Source of the DNA: Paenibacillus sp. FSL H7-0331
Lineage (GTDB): Bacteria > Bacillota > Bacilli > Paenibacillales > NBRC-103111
DNA: 64,000 bases
Reading direction: 5' to 3'
Assembly (NCBI RefSeq): GCF_001956045.1
Contig: NZ_MRTH01000031.1
Coordinates: 1 to 64,000 of the forward strand
Positions 40,967 to 55,242 of this stretch are shown here, piece by piece. A program made the position numbers and the translations under genes. The notes beneath the pieces are model-generated. The model searched no databases. It was not told the DNA's origin and saw only the letters and a program-made list of their open reading frames with translations. Each line of letters begins with the position of its first letter. The first letter of the stretch is position 1.

Positions 40967-41542
40967 GTGGATGAAGCTATGCGCATACGTATCGTACAGA
41001 CAGCAACCGATTTATTTCATAAAAAAGGATATCGATCTATGACTTTGAGTGAACTGTCGGCACAGCTTGGGATGAGCAAGAAAACCTTATACGTGTATTT
41101 CAGTGGGAAGGAGCAGATCGCAGCAGCTGTGCTGGAGAACACGATGGCAGCGATCAGTGCCAGGATTGACGAATCGACGCGGCAGGCAGGAGATCCGCTT
41201 CATTTATTAAGAGACACACTTTATGGAGTCAAGCAAGAGATTGTGAAGCTGAATCCGATGTTTCTGGAGGATATCCAGAAGTATATTCCAGAGCTGTGGG
41301 ATCGTATTGAAGCTTTTCGCGCCGGACAGCTTACTTTTATTGAGAAACTGCTGGTTCAGGCTCAGCAGGTAGGATTGATTCGAAATGTCGATCCGCGAGT
41401 TGCTGCTGTTCTTATGTCAGAAATTGTGCAGACGTTTTTGCGTCCGGATTTTGCCTCGAAGCATGGTTTTACGACGATTGATGCAGTTGAAACCTTGCTT
41501 GTCATGTTTACAGAAGGTCTTCGAATCCATAACGATCATTGA
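40967..41542 (+). CDS. TetR/AcrR-family repressor
   Basis: 191 residues. The N-terminal HTH is typical (TATDLFHKKGYRSMTLSELS, AQLGMSKKTLYVYFSGKEQI), followed by a helical ligand domain. The start is GTG at 40967 with GGGGGAGAG upstream. It is separated by only 11 bases from the phosphotransferase gene, with a palindromic region at its own promoter. It probably represses both genes until an inducer, perhaps the drug itself or membrane stress, binds. Confidence 0.88.
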   Translation: MDEAMRIRIVQTATDLFHKKGYRSMTLSELSAQLGMSKKTLYVYFSGKEQIAAAVLENTMAAISARIDESTRQAGDPLHLLRDTLYGVKQEIVKLNPMFLEDIQKYIPELWDRIEAFRAGQLTFIEKLLVQAQQVGLIRNVDPRVAAVLMSEIVQTFLRPDFASKHGFTTIDAVETLLVMFTEGLRIHNDH

Positions 41543-41553
41543 GGAGCGTGTGC

Positions 41554-44235
41554 ATGATGAAAGGATACGTTCTTGACTTTGCACAGATCGATGAAGACAG
41601 CATACCCATTGTAGGTGGAAAAGGTGCGAATCTTGGTGTAATGACGAGAGCAGGTTTTCCGGTGCCTCCCGGGTTTTGTGTAACGACTAGCGCTTACCGC
41701 GATTTTATCGGGCAAAGCAGTCTGATGGAAGCCTATTTTGACCAGCTGGATGGGATTAAGGCCAACCAACTGAATGCGATATCCGAGCTTGGCCAAAGTA
41801 TCCGCAAGCATCTGGTGACGTTAGCTATTCCGGAAGCCATTGCTGCTGAAATTATAGGCAGCTGGGAGCAATCAGCTAAAGAAAATGCCTATGCGGTTCG
41901 TTCCAGCGCGACAGCTGAGGATCTTCCTTATGCCTCATTTGCCGGGCAGCAGGATACGTATTTGAATGTAAAAGGAAGGGAGCAGCTGCTGCTGGCCATC
42001 CGTCAATGCTGGGCATCACTGTTCACGGATCGGGCCATCTCCTACAGAGCCAAGAATGGATTCGATCACCGCTCGGTACAGTTATCGGTAGTTGTCCAGC
42101 AGATGGTGGTTCCCGAAGTATCGGGTATTATGTTCACTGCTGATCCGATTAGCGGTCATCGGGGAATCCTTTCTATTGATGCCAGCTATGGACTAGGAGA
42201 GGCTCTTGTATCGGGACTGGTCTCAGCGGATTTATATCAGGTGCATGCGGGAATGATCATTTCCAAGAAAATAGCCAAAAAGAAGCTCGCCATTTTCTCA
42301 TTACCGGAGGGAGGTACGCTTACAAGGGATTTGCCTGAAGATATGCAAAGCAGGCAGGCACTTGAAGATTCGCAAATTGAACAACTGGCCTCTCTCGGTG
42401 TAAAAATCAAGGATCATTATGGAACGGATCAGGATATCGAATGGTGTTACGCAGGAGGTTTGATCTATATTGTCCAGAGCCGACCGATTACGTCGTTATA
42501 CCCGCTTCCCCAATTGTTGACGGCAGCTGGAGAATCCCCCCATATTCTACTCTCGTTCGGGCACCAGCAGATGATGACAGATGCAATGAAGCCGATGGCG
42601 CTGTCGATCTGGCAGACGATGTTTCCCTTCGGGAAACCTGCCGTTCAAGTCGAAAGCAGGTTGACGTATCGTGCTGGCGGAAGAATGTTTATTGATATCA
42701 CCCCCATACTAACTCTTAAACCAGCACGGAGCCTTGTACCCAAGGTTCTAAAAGGTGTTGACGAAATGATGGGCAGCGCTGTGGGCGAATACGTTCAACG
42801 GGATGCATTTATTCAAGACATCAAGCAGCCTAAAGGACTTGCTATGCAGATGGCTCGATTTGTCGTTCCCTTGCTCAGGAGAGTCGTTAACAATTTGCTG
42901 TTTGCTGATACCTCACGGGCAGTTCATACCGTTAATACATGGTTAAGATCCTCGTTCCAATCGGGCAAGGATCAATTGACAGACGTGAGCGGAGCGAATA
43001 GGGTGCTTGAAGTGCAGGAGCATGCCGGGAAGCTGCTGCGTACCCTGTTTCAAGAACTGATGGCCTATCCGTTGTCGGGTGTTATTGCATCAAGACTGAT
43101 TCAAGGACTTGCTGTAAGATGGTTACATGATAATGAAGTCATTCACATTTTGAATAAATCGCTGATTGGCAACGTCACCAGTGAGATGGGACTGATGATC
43201 GGAGATTTGGCGGATATTGCCAGGCAGTACCCCGAGGTCACCGCGTTGATTCATGAGGGCAGGGCATCAAGCTTTCGTGAGGCTCTTTCGACGGTTGAAG
43301 GCGGTTCCGTTTTTTTACAAGCATGGGACCATTTTATTCAGCTGTATGGCATGCGCTGTGCAGGTGAAATCGATATTACACGCCCAAGATGGAGAGAAGA
43401 CGCCAGCTCGCTGTTGCCCTCGATTGAAAGCCATATCAGAACGATGAGGCATAAGGAACACAGGGAGCGGTTTGCACAAGGCGCAGTAGAGGCTCAAACG
43501 GCTGCTGACGACTTATTGGATCGTCTTGGGAAGTTGCCCTTCGGATGGTTTAAAAAGAGATTAATGGGTCGCTTACTGCGAGTATTTCGCGATTTAATGA
43601 GCATCCGGGAGCATCCCAAATATTTGATGATGCAGCACTTCGGTTTGTTTCGAGAGGCTATTCTGAAGGAAGCGCAAAATTTGGTGCAGGAAGGAATTCT
43701 GATTGAAGAAGAGGATGTCTTTTACTTGACCTTGGATGAACTGCTGCACTTGACGAAAGGCAGACCGATCGAGCATCTCTCCCAAATAATAGTTGGCCGC
43801 AAAAAGGAACATGAGCATTACAAGTCCCTCATTCCGCCGCGGCTGATGACAAGTGAAGGTGAGATCATTACGGGTCGTCGAAGTCACCAGGATGCACCAG
43901 AGCATGCACTGCTCGGAACTCCGGTGTCCGCAGGAATCGTAGAAGGGATTGCTCGCGTGGTATTACGGCCCGAGGATGCAAAGCTGAATAAAGGTGAAAT
44001 CTTGATCGCCCCATTTACAGATCCAGGGTGGACGCCGCTGTTTCACTCGTGTGTAGGTTTGGTGATGGAAGTAGGCGGATTGATGACGCATGGTGCCGTC
44101 GTAGCGCGCGAATATGGTCTTCCAGCTGTAGTAGGCATAGATGACGTAACCAGGCTGATTCATGATGGTGACCTGATTCGTCTGGACGGTACGCGTGGAT
44201 TTGTAGTAGTCTTGACTTCAAGTACGAGCTCATAG
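41554..44235 (+). CDS. rph: Rifampicin phosphotransferase-like / PEP synthase-family enzyme (893 aa)
   Basis: The three-part layout of rifamycin phosphotransferases is seen. An ATP-grasp domain (about 1-315) has VGGKGANLGVMTRAGFPVPP and VRSSATAEDLPYASFAGQQD. A central helical domain begins SFGHQQMMTDAMKPMALSIW. A C-terminal swivel domain has the phospho-histidine H846 in GGLMTHGAVVAREYG. From memory, the whole chain reads very like Listeria RPH, which moves the beta-phosphate of ATP to the antibiotic. True PEP synthases share the end domains but not the middle. GAGGAG lies seven bases before ATG 41554. Rph against plain PpsA is the remaining doubt. Confidence 0.75.
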   Translation: MMKGYVLDFAQIDEDSIPIVGGKGANLGVMTRAGFPVPPGFCVTTSAYRDFIGQSSLMEAYFDQLDGIKANQLNAISELGQSIRKHLVTLAIPEAIAAEIIGSWEQSAKENAYAVRSSATAEDLPYASFAGQQDTYLNVKGREQLLLAIRQCWASLFTDRAISYRAKNGFDHRSVQLSVVVQQMVVPEVSGIMFTADPISGHRGILSIDASYGLGEALVSGLVSADLYQVHAGMIISKKIAKKKLAIFSLPEGGTLTRDLPEDMQSRQALEDSQIEQLASLGVKIKDHYGTDQDIEWCYAGGLIYIVQSRPITSLYPLPQLLTAAGESPHILLSFGHQQMMTDAMKPMALSIWQTMFPFGKPAVQVESRLTYRAGGRMFIDITPILTLKPARSLVPKVLKGVDEMMGSAVGEYVQRDAFIQDIKQPKGLAMQMARFVVPLLRRVVNNLLFADTSRAVHTVNTWLRSSFQSGKDQLTDVSGANRVLEVQEHAGKLLRTLFQELMAYPLSGVIASRLIQGLAVRWLHDNEVIHILNKSLIGNVTSEMGLMIGDLADIARQYPEVTALIHEGRASSFREALSTVEGGSVFLQAWDHFIQLYGMRCAGEIDITRPRWREDASSLLPSIESHIRTMRHKEHRERFAQGAVEAQTAADDLLDRLGKLPFGWFKKRLMGRLLRVFRDLMSIREHPKYLMMQHFGLFREAILKEAQNLVQEGILIEEEDVFYLTLDELLHLTKGRPIEHLSQIIVGRKKEHEHYKSLIPPRLMTSEGEIITGRRSHQDAPEHALLGTPVSAGIVEGIARVVLRPEDAKLNKGEILIAPFTDPGWTPLFHSCVGLVMEVGGLMTHGAVVAREYGLPAVVGIDDVTRLIHDGDLIRLDGTRGFVVVLTSSTSS

Positions 44236-44294: not shown

Positions 44295-45359
44295 TTATTT
44301 GCCTGCCTTTACTTCATTTAACAGGGTTAAATCCACAAATTTGCTTAGATCAAGCTCTTCCTTTTTAACGTCTTTAATATAGCCAGCATCAATGGAAACC
44401 TTGGCCATTTCTTCAATGGCTTCCTTGCTAACATCTGTGGTGAGGCTAAAACGACCCAGGGATGCTTTAATCAGGCTGATTTCCATTCCTTTGCCACTCA
44501 AAGCTTTCAAACGATTGTTAATTAGCTCATAAGATTTATCCGGGTTTTTCTTAATAAAGTCAACAGCTTCTGCATTGGCTTTAATCGCTTGCTTCGTCAT
44601 TTCACGGTGATCCTTCAGGAACTTGTCGCTAACAGCCAGCAACGTTAAAGGATAGTTACCATTATTAGGAGGGATTTTGTCCCAATCTACGATGATTTTG
44701 CCTACGCCTTCCTGCTCCATTTGTGTACCCCAAGGCTCTGGAACAAGAGTCGCATCAATTTCTTTTTGTCTCATCGCTACCATTGTGTCAGCAGGTGCAC
44801 GTGCAATGATATTCACACCGGTTTTATCTGTAGTGATTTTCAAATTATTTTGTTGAAGCAGCAGGCGCAAAGAAATTTCATTCGTGCTGCCTTTTGTCGG
44901 GATCGCAACAGTTTTACCAAGTAAATCTTTAGGGCTTGTAATTCCCGAATCTTTGGCTGCTACCAGTACAGCTCCACCATTGGTAGACCCGCTGACGATA
45001 CGGAAGTTTTTACTTTTAACGAATTGGTTGGTAGCAGGCCCAGGTCCTGTGTACCCCAGATCAATCTGATCTGTAGCTAAAGCGGTGGAGAAATCGGAGC
45101 CGTTGTCAAAGCCGACAACCTCGATCTTAACTTTATCTCCCCAAGCTTTTTGGAACAGCCCTTGTTCCAAAGCAACATAACCGGCTGCGTGTGTGACATT
45201 TTTGAAAATTCCGATGCGAACGGTAGATGCTGTTGGTGCTTGTGGAGCAGCAGCTCCTCCAGCGGCAGGTGCGGTAGGCTCTTCTTTTTTGCCGCATGCT
45301 GACAGAACCAATACGGTAACCAGCAGCAGGGCCAATAATAGTGATCCTTGTTTTTTCAT
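44295..45359 (-). CDS. ssuA: Aliphatic sulfonate-type ABC binding lipoprotein (SsuA-like)
   Basis: 354 residues with a lipoprotein signal (LVTVLVLSACGKK) and an Ala/Pro linker. A type II binding protein fold follows: VRIGIFKNVTHAAGYVALEQ, LATDQIDLGYTGPGPATNQF, TVAIPTKGSTNEI, and VPEPWGTQM. The motifs fit the SsuA/TauA/NrtA group that binds sulfonates, taurine or related small anions. It is last in a minus-strand operon behind the ATPase and permease. The exact ligand is not known. Confidence 0.82.
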   Translation of the reverse strand: MKKQGSLLLALLLVTVLVLSACGKKEEPTAPAAGGAAAPQAPTASTVRIGIFKNVTHAAGYVALEQGLFQKAWGDKVKIEVVGFDNGSDFSTALATDQIDLGYTGPGPATNQFVKSKNFRIVSGSTNGGAVLVAAKDSGITSPKDLLGKTVAIPTKGSTNEISLRLLLQQNNLKITTDKTGVNIIARAPADTMVAMRQKEIDATLVPEPWGTQMEQEGVGKIIVDWDKIPPNNGNYPLTLLAVSDKFLKDHREMTKQAIKANAEAVDFIKKNPDKSYELINNRLKALSGKGMEISLIKASLGRFSLTTDVSKEAIEEMAKVSIDAGYIKDVKKEELDLSKFVDLTLLNEVKAGK

Positions 45360-45388
45360 CGTTTAACTCTCCCTTTTATAAAATGTCG

Positions 45389-46159
45389 CTATTTTTTATT
45401 TTTATTCTCGGCTAGGCCGTAGCGAATCAAAATCGTATCCTCCAACCGTTTAAAGCAAAAATGGTCGGAGAGGGTACCCAGAACGGCAATAATGATAACT
45501 ACACACAGCATCAATGCGGTATCCGATAAGCTTCTTCCATCCTGAAGAAGTTGACCCAGGCCAACGCCTTTGGCAATCAGCTCCCCTGATACTAATGCAC
45601 GCCAGGCAAATGCCCATGCGACACGAACTCCCGTGATCATATGAGGAAAGGCGGCGGGCACCATAACCTGATAAAACATTCGAAAGCCATTGCCTGTGCC
45701 CATCGTTCGTGCAGCCTTCAGGTACAAAGGAGGAATATTCATAATACCGGTTCGGCTTGACATTGCCATAGTCCAGGTTGCCCCAAGTGTAGTGATAAAT
45801 ACGACAGAAAAGTCATTCATTCCGAACCAGATGATAGCAAAAGGCAACCAGGCGATACTTGGGACGGTTTGCAAGGCAACGACCAGGAAGCCGATAGTAT
45901 CGTCCAGAAAGCGGTATCTCGCGAATAAAAAGCCAAGTGTAACTCCAATCGATATGGCCAGCACAAAAGCTGTCAGTAGCCTGCGTATGCTCTGTAGCGT
46001 CGCTTCCAGCAGCTGTCCGTGCACAAAGCCGTCATAAAATGCTTGAGCGGTCTGGACAACAGAGGGGAACTTCCAGCCCCAATCGAATATTCTAAATCCC
46101 GCTTCCCATGCTATTAGAACTACGATCAGAAAGAGTGTTCTTCTTAAGGCTGTACTCAT
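45389..46159 (-). CDS. ssuC: ABC permease (SsuC-like)
   Basis: 256 residues, six helices, with the EAA loop PPLYLKAARTMGTGNGFRMF of the sulfonate/nitrate/taurine family. The ATG at 46159 has AGGAGATG upstream. It overlaps the end of the ATPase gene by 68 bp in another frame. It forms the channel with SsuA and SsuB. Confidence 0.85.
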   Translation of the reverse strand: MSTALRRTLFLIVVLIAWEAGFRIFDWGWKFPSVVQTAQAFYDGFVHGQLLEATLQSIRRLLTAFVLAISIGVTLGFLFARYRFLDDTIGFLVVALQTVPSIAWLPFAIIWFGMNDFSVVFITTLGATWTMAMSSRTGIMNIPPLYLKAARTMGTGNGFRMFYQVMVPAAFPHMITGVRVAWAFAWRALVSGELIAKGVGLGQLLQDGRSLSDTALMLCVVIIIAVLGTLSDHFCFKRLEDTILIRYGLAENKNKK

Positions 46160-46931
46160 CGCCCATCTCCTCCTTTACGACTTTTTCCAACTCATCGGCA
46201 AGAACTTCCATGATGTTGGTTTCCGTATGGTGAAGAAGGGGGTCAGATGCATCCCGCGGACGCTCTGCCTGAACGGCGAATTCTTTTTTTATGGTTCCAG
46301 GTCTCGTCGACATGACGAGAACACGGTCAGATAAAATAACGGCTTCACGTATATTGTGGGTGATGAAGAGAATCGTTTTCTTGGTCCGCATCCAGATTTC
46401 TTCCAGCTCTTTATGTAAAATAAGCCTGGTTTGTTCATCCAATGCAGCAAACGGCTCATCCATCAACAGAATTTCAGGGTCCATAGCCAAAGCGCGGGCA
46501 ATAGCCGCTCGTTGCTTCATCCCGCCTGATAGCTCATGTGGATAACGATCTGCAAATCTGCTCAAGTGAACGGATTTGATTTGCTCCATCGCCAGCTCCT
46601 CGCGTTCCTTCTTGCCCAATCCTTTTTGCTTAAGCCCAAATGCTACATTGTCGAGCACGGTTAGCCAAGGAAACAAGGCGTGCTCCTGAAATACGACGAC
46701 ACGGTCGGGTCCGGGTGTGCTGCAGTCTTTACCGTTGACGGTTATAGTTCCCTGCTGCGCATGCTCAAGTCCTGCTACCAAATTTAAGAGTGTAGATTTG
46801 CCGCAGCCCGATGGTCCCAGCAAGGAGACGAATTCCCCTTTTTGAATGGTCAGTGACACGTTGTCAATTGCAGTGAATGTGCCGCCTGTACGCTGCTGGA
46901 ACGTCTTGCTGATGTTCTTGATTTCAATCAT
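46092..46931 (-). CDS. ssuB: ABC ATPase (SsuB/TauB-like)
   Basis: 279 residues. Walker A LLGPSGCGKSTLLN, signature LSGGMKQR, Walker B ILLMDEPFAALD and the H-loop FITHNIREA are all present. The last 20 or so residues (KKNTLSDRSSNSMGSGI) run into the permease gene and are probably not needed. First gene of the operon, with a good promoter upstream at 47036-47009. Confidence 0.87.
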   Translation of the reverse strand: MIEIKNISKTFQQRTGGTFTAIDNVSLTIQKGEFVSLLGPSGCGKSTLLNLVAGLEHAQQGTITVNGKDCSTPGPDRVVVFQEHALFPWLTVLDNVAFGLKQKGLGKKEREELAMEQIKSVHLSRFADRYPHELSGGMKQRAAIARALAMDPEILLMDEPFAALDEQTRLILHKELEEIWMRTKKTILFITHNIREAVILSDRVLVMSTRPGTIKKEFAVQAERPRDASDPLLHHTETNIMEVLADELEKVVKEEMGDEYSLKKNTLSDRSSNSMGSGI

Positions 46932-49047: not shown

Positions 49048-49075
49048 ATTGCTCGTTGTTAACGTGTGCAGCAAT
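49048..49075 (+). promoter_or_regulatory. Possible LacI-type operator
   Basis: ATTGCT at 49048-49053 and AGCAAT at 49070-49075 flank a GTTAAC core. This is the usual shape of sites bound by LacI-family proteins, and it lies 30 bases before the regulator's start codon. Confidence 0.35.
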
Positions 49076-49104
49076 ATGATATGATAAATTTCGAGGTGGT
49101 AGGA

Positions 49105-50121
49105 TTGAGCGTTACAATCAAGGATATCGCCAAGCTGGCAGGCGTCTCTCATACAACGGTTTCCCGTGCTTTGAACGACAGCCCTTTAATCAACCAGGAA
49201 ACAAAGGAAAAAATCAGACTGCTAGCGGCACAATTGCATTATACACCGAATTATAACGCCAAAAGTCTTGTACTTGATCGATCTTACAATCTTGGCTTGT
49301 TTTTTTCAACTCTACACACGGGTACATCGGCGGGTTTTCTATACGAAGCCATTAAAGGTGTTAACGATGTGATTCAAGATCGATACAACCTGATTGTACG
49401 TGGAATCGACGACTATACCAGCTTTCACAAGGTTAATCGCAAAAGCTATGATGGGATTATCGTCATGAGTCAGAGCGCAACCGACCAACCTTTTATTGAA
49501 TATGCGGCTGGGCTCGAGATTCCGCTTATTGTGCTGAACCGCCAGATTGAGCATGTTCAGGTTATGAATATGGTTCCAGACGACAAGCGCGGCGCATATT
49601 TGATCGTGGAATATTTGATTTCCCAGGGACATCGGCAAATCGCCATTATTGAGGGAAAGCAAAATTTCAAATCGACACAAGCCCGCCGCGAGGGTTATCA
49701 GGAAGCAATGGAAGCCTATCAGGTTCCGTTAAGTTTGGATTATCAGCAGCACGGGAACTATGATTTAGAAAGCGGTCATACCGCGATGAACCGACTGTTG
49801 GAGCTCGAGAATCAACCGACCGCCGTTTTTTGCTGCAATGATGATATGGCATTGGGTGCGATCAAAGCCATAACAGAAAAACAGCTGAGTGTTCCGGGTG
49901 ACATCTCTGTGGTTGGCTTCGATGATCATATTTTCTCAGGCTTTATGACACCAGCGCTGACGACGGTTCGACGGCCGATCGAGCAAATCAGCAGGGAAGG
50001 CGCAGCCAAGCTGCTGTCTTTTATTGAATCGAAGCAGGTAGAAAAAGAAACTATTTTTTTTCATACGGAGCTCGTGATTCGGGAATCCGTAACCAACATA
50101 ACAGGAGGTTTACAACGATGA
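49105..50121 (+). CDS. LacI-family repressor of the aldonate operon
   Basis: 338 residues. The HTH is at the very start: TIKDIAKLAGVSHTTVSRAL, with the hinge helix ALNDSPLINQETKEKI and YTPNYNAKSLV. The TTG at 49105 is chosen since GAGGTGG lies five bases upstream; the ATG at 49066 has no site. The effector domain is of the ribose-binding type (VPGDISVVGFDDHIFSGFMT). It overlaps the LarA-like gene by four bases (ATGA) and so belongs to the same operon. The effector is likely gluconate or a related aldonate. Confidence 0.88.
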   Translation: MSVTIKDIAKLAGVSHTTVSRALNDSPLINQETKEKIRLLAAQLHYTPNYNAKSLVLDRSYNLGLFFSTLHTGTSAGFLYEAIKGVNDVIQDRYNLIVRGIDDYTSFHKVNRKSYDGIIVMSQSATDQPFIEYAAGLEIPLIVLNRQIEHVQVMNMVPDDKRGAYLIVEYLISQGHRQIAIIEGKQNFKSTQARREGYQEAMEAYQVPLSLDYQQHGNYDLESGHTAMNRLLELENQPTAVFCCNDDMALGAIKAITEKQLSVPGDISVVGFDDHIFSGFMTPALTTVRRPIEQISREGAAKLLSFIESKQVEKETIFFHTELVIRESVTNITGGLQR

Positions 50122-51389
50122 GTATCTTAAGAGAAGTTCTCAAAGACATTCCGATTCCACAAATGGTGCGTATCCGTCAAAAATTCGATGGCACCAAGCT
50201 CGACAATCTGGAACAATCTCTGAAGCTAGAGCTGCAAAAGCCGGGTACGATCGACCGGATCAAGCCCGGACAGCAGGTTGCTGTAGCCGTAGGGAGCCGG
50301 GGCGTTGCGAACATTGATCTGTTTACGAAAATTACGATTGATGCCATAAAACAAGCAGGTGGTCATCCTTACATTGTTCCTTGTATGGGAAGTCATGGTG
50401 GGGCAACGGCTGAAGGTCAGAAGGATGTGCTGCATCATTTGGGTGTTACAGAGGAATTGATGGGAGCTCCAATCCGTTCTTCCATGGAGGTTATCAAGCT
50501 TGACGAGCTTCCTAACGGATTACCTGTTTATGTGGATCAAATTGCTTCGACAGCGGACGCGATTGTTGTGATTAATCGAGTGAAGCCCCATACGGCTTTT
50601 CGCGGGAGAATTGAGAGCGGGATTATGAAAATGATCGCGATCGGTCTGGGTAAACAAAAGGGGGCGGAAGCCTGCCATCAGCTAGGATTTAAATATATGG
50701 CTGAAAATGTGCCAGCTATGGCTACCATTATGATCGACAAGCTGCCGATTGTGTTCGGCGTTGCTCTTGTTGAGAATGCCTATGATCAAACCTGCCGCAT
50801 TGAAGTATTACCTGCTGAACAAATCGAAGCACGTGAAGAAGAACTGCTTAAGGAAGCGAAGGAAAGACTTCCGAAGATTTTGTTCGACCAGGTCGATGTG
50901 CTGGTGATCGATTACATTGGCAAAAACATTAGTGGAGACGGTATGGACCCGAATGTAACAGGCAGGTATCCAACGCCTTATGCACACGGTGGACCTGATG
51001 TATCCAAAATGGTTGTGCTGGATTTGACACCTGAAACCAAAGGGAATGCCAATGGGGTAGGAACTGCAGACTTTACGACACAGCGTTTAGTAGATAAAAT
51101 GGATTTGGCTGCAACTTTTGTTAATGGGCTGACTTCAACGGTATGTGCACCAACCAAAATTTCGACTACGCTCGATAACGACTTCTATGCAATCAAAGCC
51201 GCTGTCAAAACTTGTAATATTCTGGATTACACCAAATGTCGTCTTATCCGCATTCAGGATACGCTGCACTTGGGTGAAATCGAAATTTCGGTGAACCTGC
51301 TGGAGGACGCTAAAAAGCATGCGGATATTGAGATTTTAAGCGAGCCTTACGATCTCCAATTTGATAGTGAAGGGAATTTGGTACAATGA
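50118..51389 (+). CDS. LarA-like nickel-pincer-nucleotide isomerase (aldonate racemase/epimerase candidate)
   Basis: 423 residues of the LarA/DUF2088 superfamily, whose lactate racemase uses a nickel pincer cofactor. Visible are MGSHGGATAEGQ with H93, NRVKPHTAFRG with H158, and SGIMKMIAIGLGKQKGAEAC followed by H187. K171 and H187 are 16 apart, the same as K184 and H200 in Lactobacillus LarA; H93 and H158 are spaced much like H108 and H174. Standing before gluconokinase, it may convert another aldonate to D-gluconate. That is inference; the larBCE cofactor genes are not in the window. Co-translated with its neighbours (ATGA on both sides). Confidence 0.78.
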   Translation: MSILREVLKDIPIPQMVRIRQKFDGTKLDNLEQSLKLELQKPGTIDRIKPGQQVAVAVGSRGVANIDLFTKITIDAIKQAGGHPYIVPCMGSHGGATAEGQKDVLHHLGVTEELMGAPIRSSMEVIKLDELPNGLPVYVDQIASTADAIVVINRVKPHTAFRGRIESGIMKMIAIGLGKQKGAEACHQLGFKYMAENVPAMATIMIDKLPIVFGVALVENAYDQTCRIEVLPAEQIEAREEELLKEAKERLPKILFDQVDVLVIDYIGKNISGDGMDPNVTGRYPTPYAHGGPDVSKMVVLDLTPETKGNANGVGTADFTTQRLVDKMDLAATFVNGLTSTVCAPTKISTTLDNDFYAIKAAVKTCNILDYTKCRLIRIQDTLHLGEIEISVNLLEDAKKHADIEILSEPYDLQFDSEGNLVQ

Positions 51390-52939
51390 GCTTGTCGTCA
51401 CAAAAGCCTTACATCATAGCGGCCGATCTCGGTACAACAAGCGCCAAGACGCTGGTTATTGACCGGGATGGCCAGGTGTTGGCTTCACATTCCGTAGAAT
51501 ATCCGATGTACACTCCGCGCCCGGATATGGCGGAGCAGGACCCGGATGAAATTTTTGCTGCGCTTTTAACTTCGGTTCAGGCCGTCATTGCTAAGGCAAG
51601 AATTTTGCCAAGCCAGATTTTGTGCGTATCGTTCAGTTCGGCCATGCATAGCTTGATTGCGGTCGATCGTGAATTGAATCTCCTGACTCCTAATATTATT
51701 TGGGCTGATAATCGTAGTGTTGGTTATGTGAAGGTATTGAACGAACAGCTTGACGGTCATCAGATCTACATGAATACCGGCACGCCAATACATCCGATGT
51801 CCCCACTACTTAAGCTGATGTGGCTTCGGGACAACCAACCGGATGTTTTTGAGCATGCACATAAGTTTATCGGTATCAAGGAATATATATTTGCCAAACT
51901 GTTTGGGCAGTATGTGATCGATTATTCGATAGCGAGTACGACTGGACTTTTCAATCTGCGTAAGCTGGATTGGGACGAGCAAGCTATGAAAGCCTGCGGT
52001 GTTCGCAGGGAGCAGCTGCCAGACCCGGTTTCAACGACGCATCATCTCGCAGGCATGAAGCAGCAGTACGCTCAAGCTATGGGACTTCACGCGGATACGC
52101 CGTTTGTACTCGGTGCAGCTGATGGAGTTTTGGCAAACCTGGGTGTAGGTGCTTTTGAAGAGGGCATATACGCGGTTACTATCGGTACGAGTGGTGCTGT
52201 TCGTGGTGTTGTGCGGGAGCCTATTACCGATCCGAAGGGGCGGCTGTTTTGCTATGCCCTCAAGGAAGACTTCTGGGTCGTTGGAGGAGCGATTAATAAC
52301 GGCGGGATCATGTTCCGCTGGGTGCGCGATCAATTGGCTACAGCAGAAGCTGAGGAAGGTCGGCGTCGCGGCCTCGATCCATACGACTATTTGACCTCTA
52401 TTGCAGAGGAAGTCGCAGCAGGCTCTGACGGTCTTATTTTCCTGCCGCTGCTTGCCGGAGAACGGGCTCCTTATTGGAATGCCAACGCTCGAGGTGTATT
52501 TTTTGGATTGTCCTTGTATCATCAGAAAAAGCATATGATCCGTGCCGTTATGGAAGGTGTTATGTACCGGATACAATCCGTTCTTTCCGCGTTAGAGGAG
52601 CTTTCAGGTCCTACCAAGGAAATACGCGCATCCGGCGGCTTTGCTCGGTCCAGCTTTTGGCTGCAAATGATGTCTGATGTAACAGGGAGCTCTGTTGTGG
52701 TGCCGAATACGATTGAAAGCTCGGGACTTGGCGCTGCTCAGCTCGGCTTACTTGCTATGGGCGAGATCAAAGACTTTTCGGTCGTTCACGACTGGATGCA
52801 GGTTCAACACAAGTACACAGCCAATCAAGAACACGTTGAGCTGTATAAGCAATTGACCGGTATTTATGGTCGTGTCTACCATCAGCTGAAGGATGAGTTC
52901 GAATCGATCGCTGCTTTTCAACATGCGCATACGAAGTAA
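51386..52939 (+). CDS. gntK: Gluconokinase (FGGY family)
   Basis: 517 residues. Starts with the phosphate-1 motif IIAADLGTTSAKTLVIDRDG. The catalytic Asp region is VLGAADGVLANLG, and the second FGGY signature is around EIRASGGFARSSFWLQMMSD. Length and the SFSSAMHSLIAVD segment fit gluconokinases of Bacilli. It makes 6-phosphogluconate, the substrate of the dehydrogenase two genes later. The ATG overlaps the LarA-like stop. Confidence 0.85.
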   Translation: MSLSSQKPYIIAADLGTTSAKTLVIDRDGQVLASHSVEYPMYTPRPDMAEQDPDEIFAALLTSVQAVIAKARILPSQILCVSFSSAMHSLIAVDRELNLLTPNIIWADNRSVGYVKVLNEQLDGHQIYMNTGTPIHPMSPLLKLMWLRDNQPDVFEHAHKFIGIKEYIFAKLFGQYVIDYSIASTTGLFNLRKLDWDEQAMKACGVRREQLPDPVSTTHHLAGMKQQYAQAMGLHADTPFVLGAADGVLANLGVGAFEEGIYAVTIGTSGAVRGVVREPITDPKGRLFCYALKEDFWVVGGAINNGGIMFRWVRDQLATAEAEEGRRRGLDPYDYLTSIAEEVAAGSDGLIFLPLLAGERAPYWNANARGVFFGLSLYHQKKHMIRAVMEGVMYRIQSVLSALEELSGPTKEIRASGGFARSSFWLQMMSDVTGSSVVVPNTIESSGLGAAQLGLLAMGEIKDFSVVHDWMQVQHKYTANQEHVELYKQLTGIYGRVYHQLKDEFESIAAFQHAHTK

Positions 52940-52979
52940 TGAAAACTAATAATTTTTGACAAATTTGAGGAGGTTCATC

Positions 52980-53747
52980 ATGAATTTATTTGATCTGACA
53001 GGAAAAACAGCAATCGTTATCGGTGGTAACAGTACTTTGGGCGGTGCTATGGCAGTAGCTCTAGGAGGACATGGAGCCAATGTTGCAATTGTCGGCCGTA
53101 ATCAGGAAAAATCCGAAATCGTGAAACAAAGTATTTTGGAAGTTGGCGGCAAAGCAGAAATTTTTTCCGCAGACGCTACACTTGCCGAAGACTTGCAAAA
53201 AGTGCTGGCTGATGTGTTGGCATGGACAGGCCGCGTAGATATTTTAATGAATTGTCCCGGAAAGAACAGCCCAACGCCGTTTTTTGACTTGAAAATGGAA
53301 GAATGGGATTCTATCATGGACGTTAACCTGAAAAGTGTCGTATTAGCCAGTCAAGTATTTGGAAAACATATGGTTGATAAAGGCGAGGGCGGCAGCATCA
53401 TCAACATTTCGTCGGCTTCTTCCCAGGTTCCATTATCACGCGTGTTCACTTACTCGGCTTCCAAAGCAGCCGTTAATAGTGTAACCAAATTTCTTGCCCG
53501 TGAATTTGCACCTGCGAACGTTCGCGTGAATGCGATTATTCCTGGTTTCTTTCCGGCAGAACAAAACCGCAAGCTCTTGACTCCTGAGCGTACGGCGTCT
53601 ATTATGGGCCATACACCGATGAATCGATTTGGGGAAGCAGAAGAGCTGCAGGGAGCGGCTGTATTTTTGGCTTCCGATAAGGCTTCGAGCTTCGTAACAG
53701 GCTCACTTTTGACAGTTGATGGCGGCTTCACAGCAATGACAATCTAA
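52980..53747 (+). CDS. SDR-family oxidoreductase (gluconate 5-dehydrogenase / aldonate dehydrogenase-like)
   Basis: 255 residues. NAD(P) motif VIGGNSTLGGAMAVALG; catalytic Ser in INISSASSQ and YSASKAAVN. GAGGAGG lies before the ATG at 52980. It looks like gluconate 5-dehydrogenase or mannonate/fructuronate-type SDRs and may supply a keto-intermediate from other sugar acids. It lies between the kinase and Gnd, so its substrate is probably an aldonate or ketoaldonate. Confidence 0.8.
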   Translation: MNLFDLTGKTAIVIGGNSTLGGAMAVALGGHGANVAIVGRNQEKSEIVKQSILEVGGKAEIFSADATLAEDLQKVLADVLAWTGRVDILMNCPGKNSPTPFFDLKMEEWDSIMDVNLKSVVLASQVFGKHMVDKGEGGSIINISSASSQVPLSRVFTYSASKAAVNSVTKFLAREFAPANVRVNAIIPGFFPAEQNRKLLTPERTASIMGHTPMNRFGEAEELQGAAVFLASDKASSFVTGSLLTVDGGFTAMTI

Positions 53748-53829
53748 TAATCTTTTGAAATTCATCGAGAAATGTTTATAATTACAAGTGAGTCGTAACG
53801 AAACTATATGCAGGAGAGGGAGAAAACAG

Positions 53830-55242
53830 ATGTCTAAACAGCAAGTTGGCGTAATCGGATTAGCAGTTATGGGTAAGAACCTGGCATTGAACATTGAAAG
53901 CAGAGGATTTACTGTCTCTGTGTACAACCGTTCTCGTGAAAAAACGGATGCCCTGATTGAGGAAGCAGCAGGCAAAAACCTGGTTGGTACATACAGCATC
54001 GAAGAATTCGTAGCTTCTCTGGAAACGCCTCGCAGGATACTGATCATGGTACAAGCAGGTGCTGGAACAGACGCAACTATCGATTCGCTTGTACCGCTTT
54101 TGGATAAAGGCGATATTATTATTGACGGCGGTAACGCTTATTTCCCTGATACGCAGCGCAGAAACAAAGACCTGCAAGCACATGGTCTTCGCTTTATCGG
54201 TACTGGGGTTTCCGGTGGTGAGGAAGGCGCTTTGAAAGGTCCTTCGATCATGCCAGGCGGCCAAAAAGACGCATATGAGCTGGTTGAACCTATCTTGACA
54301 GCAATCTCGGCCAAGGTTGGCGGCGATCCTTGCTGCACATACATCGGACCTGACGGTGCTGGTCACTACGTGAAAATGGTTCACAATGGCATCGAGTACG
54401 GCGACATGCAGCTAATCTGCGAAGCTTACCAGCTGTTGAAGGATGTATTAGATGTTAGCACGGACGAGTTGCACGAAATTTTCTCCGAGTGGAATAAAGG
54501 CGAGCTTGATAGCTACCTGATTGAAATCACTACAGACATTTTCACGAAAAAAGATCCAGAAACCGGCAAGCCTATGGTTGATGTGATTCTTGATTCCGCA
54601 GGTCAAAAAGGAACCGGTAAATGGACAAGCCAAAGCTCTTTGGACCTTGGAGTACCATTGTCCATCATTACGGAATCCGTATTCTCACGTTTCCTCTCCG
54701 CTATGAAGCAAGAGCGCGTAGCTGCGAGCAAAGTATTAAACGGACCTAACGTTTCCAAATATACAGGCGATCGCAAAGAGTTCATCGAAGCTGTTCGCAA
54801 AGCGCTGTATGCAAGCAAAATTTGCTCATACGCTCAAGGCTTCGCTCAAATGAGAGCAGCTTCTGTTGAATATAACTGGAGTCTGGATTACGGCAGTATC
54901 GCCATGATCTTCCGTGGTGGCTGCATCATTCGTGCCCGCTTCCTGCAAAATATCAAGGACGCTTATGACCGCGATCCTGAATTGAAAAACCTGCTGCTTG
55001 ACGGCTATTTCCAGGATGTTGTGAGTAACTACCAGGATGCATGGAGAAATGTAATTGCAACTGCCGTAACTCGCGGTATCCCTGCTCCAGCATTCGCTTC
55101 TGCCCTGGCTTACTACGATAGCTACCGCACAGAGCGTTTGCCTGCAAACCTGCTTCAGGCTCAAAGAGATTATTTCGGAGCGCATACTTTCCAACGTCTG
55201 GATAAAGAGGGTTCTTTCCACTTTAACTGGATGGAGAACTAG
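53830..55242 (+). CDS. gnd: 6-phosphogluconate dehydrogenase, decarboxylating
   Basis: 470 residues, the standard length. NADP motif [20 protein letters not shown]; substrate/catalytic stretch [20 protein letters not shown], then [20 protein letters not shown] with Lys; and the C-terminal signature [20 protein letters not shown]. It turns 6-phosphogluconate into ribulose 5-phosphate with CO2 and NADPH. The inner ATG has GGAGAGGGAG before it. It ends the aldonate operon. The SDR-gnd gap of 82 bp leaves room for its own promoter. Confidence 0.95.

Follow-up and report, generated by a model that had tools for sequence, protein, structure and literature searches.

A likely nickel-pincer nucleotide-dependent D-mannonate/D-gluconate 2-epimerase encoded in a LacI-type gluconate operon of Paenibacillus

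In gnt operons of the Bacillus subtilis type, gluconokinase and 6-phosphogluconate dehydrogenase are encoded together. The same pair is found in the operon studied here, which is located in Paenibacillus sp. FSL H7-0331 within a stretch of 64,000 nucleotides (contig NZ_MRTH01000031.1, positions 1 to 64,000), referred to as the window. In addition, this operon encodes a LarA-superfamily protein (LarAH) and a short-chain dehydrogenase/reductase (SDR); its regulator is of the LacI type and no permease is present among its five genes. The nearest parallel is the gntE gene of Thermotoga maritima, which was not named in a preliminary description of the locus. In the cluster aldH-pelB-gnd-uxaRED-gntEK of that organism, a LarA-superfamily member (GntE2 or LarAH20, PDB 4NAR, presumably locus tag TM0442) is likewise found beside gnd, gntK and the fructuronate-reductase gene uxaD, whose product we take to be an SDR. 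GntE2 belongs to another LarA group with different loop residues, and its cluster is associated with a GntR-type regulator, UxaR, whereas a LacI-type regulator is found here. The pathway predicted for T. maritima in excerpts of PMC3750489 and PMC6978723 leads from hexuronate to mannonate, gluconate and 6-phosphogluconate by the same steps as proposed here, and GntE activity was later demonstrated (excerpt of PMC7583248). The pathway idea is therefore less new and the surprise is limited: the finding is most aptly described as a new branch of an already known class, the nickel-dependent aldonate epimerases, and the type of pathway is not new either.

LarAH is likely to be a nickel-pincer nucleotide-dependent C2 epimerase interconverting D-mannonate and D-gluconate, within an operon pathway to ribulose 5-phosphate under LacI control. 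The proposed route can be summarized as follows. The SDR would reduce D-fructuronate, originating from glucuronate or, via UxaC and UxaE, from galacturonate, to D-mannonate, and LarAH, once loaded with its cofactor, would convert the latter to D-gluconate. Gluconokinase would then yield 6-phosphogluconate, from which Gnd would produce ribulose 5-phosphate, and a transketolase encoded behind the same operator would carry pentose phosphates onward. The LacI-type protein would repress the operon from an operator placed over the promoter. Epimerisation of D-mannonate at C2 yields D-gluconate, the substrate of gluconokinase. The epimerisation of an aldonate to D-gluconate prior to phosphorylation, already suggested in the preliminary description, is supported as the best reading. 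The aldonate can now be narrowed to D-mannonate as the most likely candidate, because the SDR scores best with D-mannonate oxidoreductase and uronate isomerases occur in the clusters of some relatives.

The earlier recognition of a LarA-superfamily protein in a gluconate operon is borne out by family models, fold and conserved Lys/His residues. LarAH matches NF052515 (group 22) with 558 bits (curated cut-off 400) and Lar_N with 30.2 bits (curated cut-off 23.3), and its predicted structure matches the two-domain LarA fold at 12-19% identity to solved LarA proteins (12-17% for those of Lactobacillus plantarum and Isosphaera pallida), 4NAR being absent among the fold matches listed. Sequence searches of the PDB using LarAH alone or a 14-row profile gave no significant LarA match, the best profile matches (E 0.35 and 0.66) both being LarA-type; homology to the solved LarA proteins is therefore founded on fold, profile-profile comparison and family models. 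Residue conservation was counted in a hand-picked set of 57 sequences. R61, K171 and H187 are invariant (57/57) and were aligned by hhalign to the LarA cofactor residues R75, K184 and H200, while the equally invariant H93 and H158 (57/57) are the counterparts of the catalytic H108 and H174. The L. plantarum and I. pallida enzymes thus share the fold and these five positions with LarAH. The latter differs from LarA lactate racemase in lacking Asp72, in an H-K spacing of 13 instead of 10 and in its sugar-acid operon context. The LarA proteins of Blautia wexlerae and Streptococcus plurextorum carry Asn in place of His174 (excerpt of PMC12611868), whereas both catalytic histidines are kept in all 57 members of the set. 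Two loops containing invariant residues (model residues 270-290 and 336-347) display a very low predicted local distance difference test score; these loops may become ordered only when cofactor or substrate is bound.

No NF052515 match was obtained at E 0.001 in the control genomes of T. maritima and Corynebacterium glutamicum, and LarAH falls outside the sequence group of the GntE enzymes of these two organisms; Haloferax volcanii does match at this threshold. In the literature searched, no mention of 'LarAH22' or of the group 22 model name and no published activity for group 22 were found, and neither 'group 22' nor 'LarAH22' occurs in the main text of PMC7583248 or of PMC11770544. Among titles and abstract openings, neither a Paenibacillus gluconate-transketolase LacI regulon nor the present system (LarA with gluconate and Paenibacillus, or LarA with mannonate and uronate isomerase) was found.

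The cofactor genes larB, larC and larE, which had been expected to lie elsewhere, are present away from the operon in all 13 nearest genomes of the genus, a set outside which the genome of the window itself falls. The order was sampled with 159 genomes, of which 77 carry group 22 and 80 carry larC: every group 22 carrier has larC (77/77), and larC without group 22 is limited to G018, G026 and G036. The corresponding Fisher p value of 2e-42 ignores relatedness, and larC alone was counted at this scale. Physical linkage is observed in several loci, the lar genes of the first two having been checked with hidden Markov models: SDR-LarAH-GntK-larE-larB-larC with a divergent LacI-type gene (L094), gnd-LarAH-SDR-larE-FGGY-larB-larC (L092), and LarE as the next gene in L101 and L091. 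In the hand-picked set, larE, larB or larC is nearby in 8/57, a figure that is no rate because the set was hand-picked and L091-L094 were chosen for a nearby larC. The LarAH homologues of L075 and L077 are not next to larC. In L093 (8567-13449), a group 22 gene shares a cluster with larE, larB, larC and the gene of a NicO-like membrane protein; a nickel transporter beside larB is a suggestion only, because the NicO-like protein scores below the Pfam cut-off (20.8 against 27.7). The nearest genome (G001, sharing 21% of sampled 31-letter words with the window) also encodes a true LarA (553 bits against 460), so the cofactor genes could serve both proteins there.

The features of the operon are collected in Table 1; the five genes, in the order lacI, larAH, gntK, SDR gene and gnd, the operator and a promoter-like site all lie on the + strand of the window between 49056 and 55242. 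Co-translation of LarAH with the LacI regulator and gluconokinase, followed by the SDR and 6-phosphogluconate dehydrogenase, was described beforehand and agrees with the four-base overlaps at lacI/larAH and larAH/gntK, the gene order and the family matches. Purine-rich sequences resembling ribosome-binding sites precede the SDR gene and gnd. Start codons of LacI are mixed among the relatives. Ahead of gnd, the strong promoter-like sequence at 53755-53782 suggests that this gene may also be transcribed separately.

Table 1. Predicted features of the operon in the window
Feature	Position	Strand	Basis or remark
LacI operator TTGTTAACGTGTGCA (pseudo-palindrome TGNNNACGTNNNCA)	49056..49070	+	Conserved in upstream regions of relatives
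Promoter-like site TTGTTA-18-TATGAT, TG before second hexamer	49056..49085	+	Consensus scan, 9/12
lacI-family repressor	49105..50121	+	TTG start, set by comparison with relatives; Pfam LacI and Peripla_BP_3
larAH, group 22 nickel-pincer nucleotide isomerase, predicted D-mannonate/D-gluconate 2-epimerase	50118..51389	+	NF052515, Lar_N, fold, residues
gntK, FGGY gluconokinase	51386..52939	+	TIGR01314, 650.5 bits against cut-off 648.55 (narrow pass)
SDR oxidoreductase, predicted D-fructuronate reductase (D-mannonate dehydrogenase)	52980..53747	+	Best NCBIfam PRK08277, under cut-off
Promoter-like site TTGAAA-16-TATAAT before gnd	53755..53782	+	Consensus scan, 11/12
gnd, decarboxylating 6-phosphogluconate dehydrogenase	53830..55242	+	TIGR00873, 767.5 bits against 426.7

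Neighbourhoods were extracted from the best 80 of 269 confirmed loci. LacI, GntK, SDR and Gnd are found within 6 kb in 73 of these 80. Two of the remaining seven are cut by contig ends (L024 and L073), three keep GntK and SDR (L072, L079 and L080, the SDR being directly upstream of LarAH rather than downstream in the last two) and two have none of the four (L075 and L077). More distant loci (L123, L124, L126 and L127, L126 measuring 3.6 kb) hold LarAH and SDR only. The LarAH of Paenibacillus periandrae (L001) is identical to that of the window at 421/423 residues, two being different. Broken relatives were also encountered, with a truncated gntK in L021 and a LarAH match split in two in L076.

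Upstream regions of the window and 75 loci were compared. The operator TTGTTAACGTGTGCA is exact in 72/76 and has one mismatch in the other 4/76, and in 74/76 the distance from its end to the aligned LacI start is 30-44 bases. In the upstream promoter-like site, the operator covers the first hexamer and also some of the spacer, and T.TG.TAT is conserved 3' of the operator in the relatives. On the scan alone this promoter is weak, as 14 promoter-like sites were counted in the region against 10.1 expected. The 14-base operator core has one exact match in the window, at 49056..49070. When up to one mismatch was allowed, the operator was located at 48 places in the 13 genomes of the genus, against 6 for a backwards control pattern. 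Its targets per genome are the operon (13/13), transketolase (tkt, 11/13), Gfo/Idh (8/13), a GDSL lipase (3/13) and uxaE-uxaC (1/13); at 12/48 places no shared target was recognised, and 5 lie inside open reading frames. The presence of transketolase under the same operator points to pentose phosphates as the destination of the flow. The regulon Gfo/Idh gene is preceded by the operator in L185 (4711-5877) and seven relatives, and the best solved relative of its product is glucuronide-3-dehydrogenase (8tdi, E 2e-104). For the lipase, the operator stands before or near the gene in L199, L205 and L211 (G007, G010 and G012), the genes being 75-85% identical to that of L205.

Further indications on the substrate were obtained from the gene neighbours of relatives. 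Two loci (L125 and L131) display the order uxaC-gnd-gfo-TIM barrel-larAH-sdr-FGGY kinase. The Gfo/Idh gene located there was considered as one link with that of the regulon and rejected because the identity is just 26-27%. L107 has sdr-larAH-BH0493-type isomerase and L103 larAH-BH0493-type isomerase; the L103 neighbour is of the BH0493 uronate isomerase type according to PDB search, and the L107 neighbour is linked to it by tblastn (66%). An initial 'UxaC' label for both was a guess, Pfam and NCBIfam being empty, and a 500-residue neighbour of UxaC first taken for UxaB is UxaE according to Pfam. In L105, a LacI-type gene and larAH-gntK-sdr-gnd are accompanied by genes for a GPH symporter and a beta-glucuronidase (890 bits against 544), and in L110 the SDR is followed by a UxaC open reading frame, of which the N-terminal piece only is present.

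A number of observations weigh against the proposed D-mannonate route. LarA Asp72 is lost, the position three before R61 being Val in 50/57 and Ala in 7/57, and for Lys298 there are two candidate counterparts, K269 (57/57) or R/K283 (57/57), the hhalign alignment covering the N-terminal domain only. The second histidine is followed by T-A, against E-V/S in known GntEs (PMC7583248, PMC11770544). The SDR scores 264.6 bits with PRK08277 D-mannonate oxidoreductase, under the cut-off of 281; this family ranks first, always under cut-off, for the SDR and five related SDRs. The SDR is 39% identical to the standard UxuB (451.2 bits with PRK08277) found in the nearest genome beside uxuA, and the idea that it is the sole fructuronate reductase was dropped for this reason. 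UxuA-family and UxaC proteins are each present in 13/13 genomes of the genus; together with UxuB in the nearest one, this would make the operon a second mannonate exit, not the sole one. Gluconokinase is the best match of the L125 kinase with 448.9 bits, and the L092 kinase reaches 467.9 bits, both under the cut-off of 648.55. A uronate isomerase is found within 7 kb in just 6/57 of the hand-picked loci. The LarAH homologues of L075 and L077 (74% and 71%) are without SDR, GntK or Gnd relatives above thresholds. The operator precedes uxaE-uxaC in one genome only (G005, exact site), the best match within 300 bases upstream of uxaE in L150 and L152 having 6 or 7 mismatches, and its role as a general uxaE-uxaC control was dropped.

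Several alternatives have been weighed. If the SDR were a 5-keto-D-gluconate reductase, another hexonate pair would be processed, for example from L-gulonate to L-idonate, 5-keto-D-gluconate and D-gluconate, which is then phosphorylated. Its second-best family is gluconate 5-dehydrogenase (PRK08213, 221.5 bits, cut-off 279), and, given the separate UxuB beside uxuA, the retention of both systems would be understandable if the aldonate were not mannonate. However, no L-idonate dehydrogenase was detected by family search among the five operon genes, all five related SDRs tested place D-mannonate oxidoreductase first, and uronate isomerases adjoin the LarAH/SDR pair in several relatives, where idonate genes were not met, though none were searched for; we regard such a pathway as unlikely. 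The gene order is compatible with either sequence of steps, and the kinase might first act on D-mannonate with LarAH as a 6-phosphomannonate 2-epimerase, a phospho-first route being described in Lactobacillus suebicus (excerpt of PMC6978723). The LarA activities reported in parts of PMC7583248 and PMC11770544 nevertheless concern free acids, and no GntK homologue turned up in the 14-20 kb of L123, L124 and L127, which do contain LarAH and SDR; we regard this order as quite improbable.

As epimerases are reversible and UxuA-family proteins are universal in the genus set, D-gluconate could also be converted to D-mannonate and leave via UxuA and 2-keto-3-deoxygluconate (KDG). The inclusion of GntK and Gnd in the operon itself, and the operator before transketolase in most of the genomes, make this direction very improbable. 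Finally, the loss of Asp72 and the low identity to solved LarA proteins would fit a LarA relative working without the nickel-pincer cofactor, but the Lys, His and Arg of the cofactor site show no variation and larC accompanies every carrier, and we give this possibility hardly any credence. The conversion of D-mannonate to D-gluconate by LarAH remains the favored interpretation.

The nearest genome encodes three further group 22 proteins of 43-44% identity. One adjoins PdxA-type and DUF1537-type kinase genes (L096, 8799-12510) and another PdxA-type and altronate/galactarate dehydratase genes (L097, 8810-13152). Enzymes of these types are of the kind known from tetronate breakdown, and the two paralogues probably epimerise tetronates or other aldonates. 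Across the 57 sequences, residue 160, which follows H158-T159, is Ala in 35/35 members with an SDR context and Asp in 4/4 with a PdxA context; it is no clean sorter: Ala also occurs in 6 members that lack the SDR, and 8 members that lack PdxA have Asp. In a midpoint-rooted tree, one clade (100/98) contains all 35 SDR-context members together with three others; the SDR label has to change 3 times on this tree, in which several long branches are uncertain.

Elsewhere in the window, 41539-44232 encodes a protein of 898 residues that contains PPDK_N and PEP-utilizers domains and adjoins a gene judged TetR-like by eye. An ATP-binding cassette importer, by eye of the nitrate/sulfonate type (substrate-binding protein, permease and ATPase), occupies the minus strand at 44295-46931.

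These results predict a substrate for a LarA group of considerable size, with at least 7998 homologues scored, and suggest a role for the nickel cofactor in hexuronate breakdown by Paenibacillaceae and other Bacillota. Residue 160 provides an idea on specificity and the LacI regulon a testable prediction. It is conceivable, although we would not count on it, that group 22 consists of aldonate 2-epimerases split by chain length, one clade (Ala160) acting on hexonates in hexuronate breakdown and another (Asp160) on tetronates next to PdxA-type and DUF1537-type enzymes, with a LacI regulon of Paenibacillaceae linking the nickel enzyme, transketolase and a glucuronide-oxidising enzyme. If true, a nickel-dependent pathway would lead from glucuronides to pentose phosphates in Paenibacillaceae without passing through KDG.
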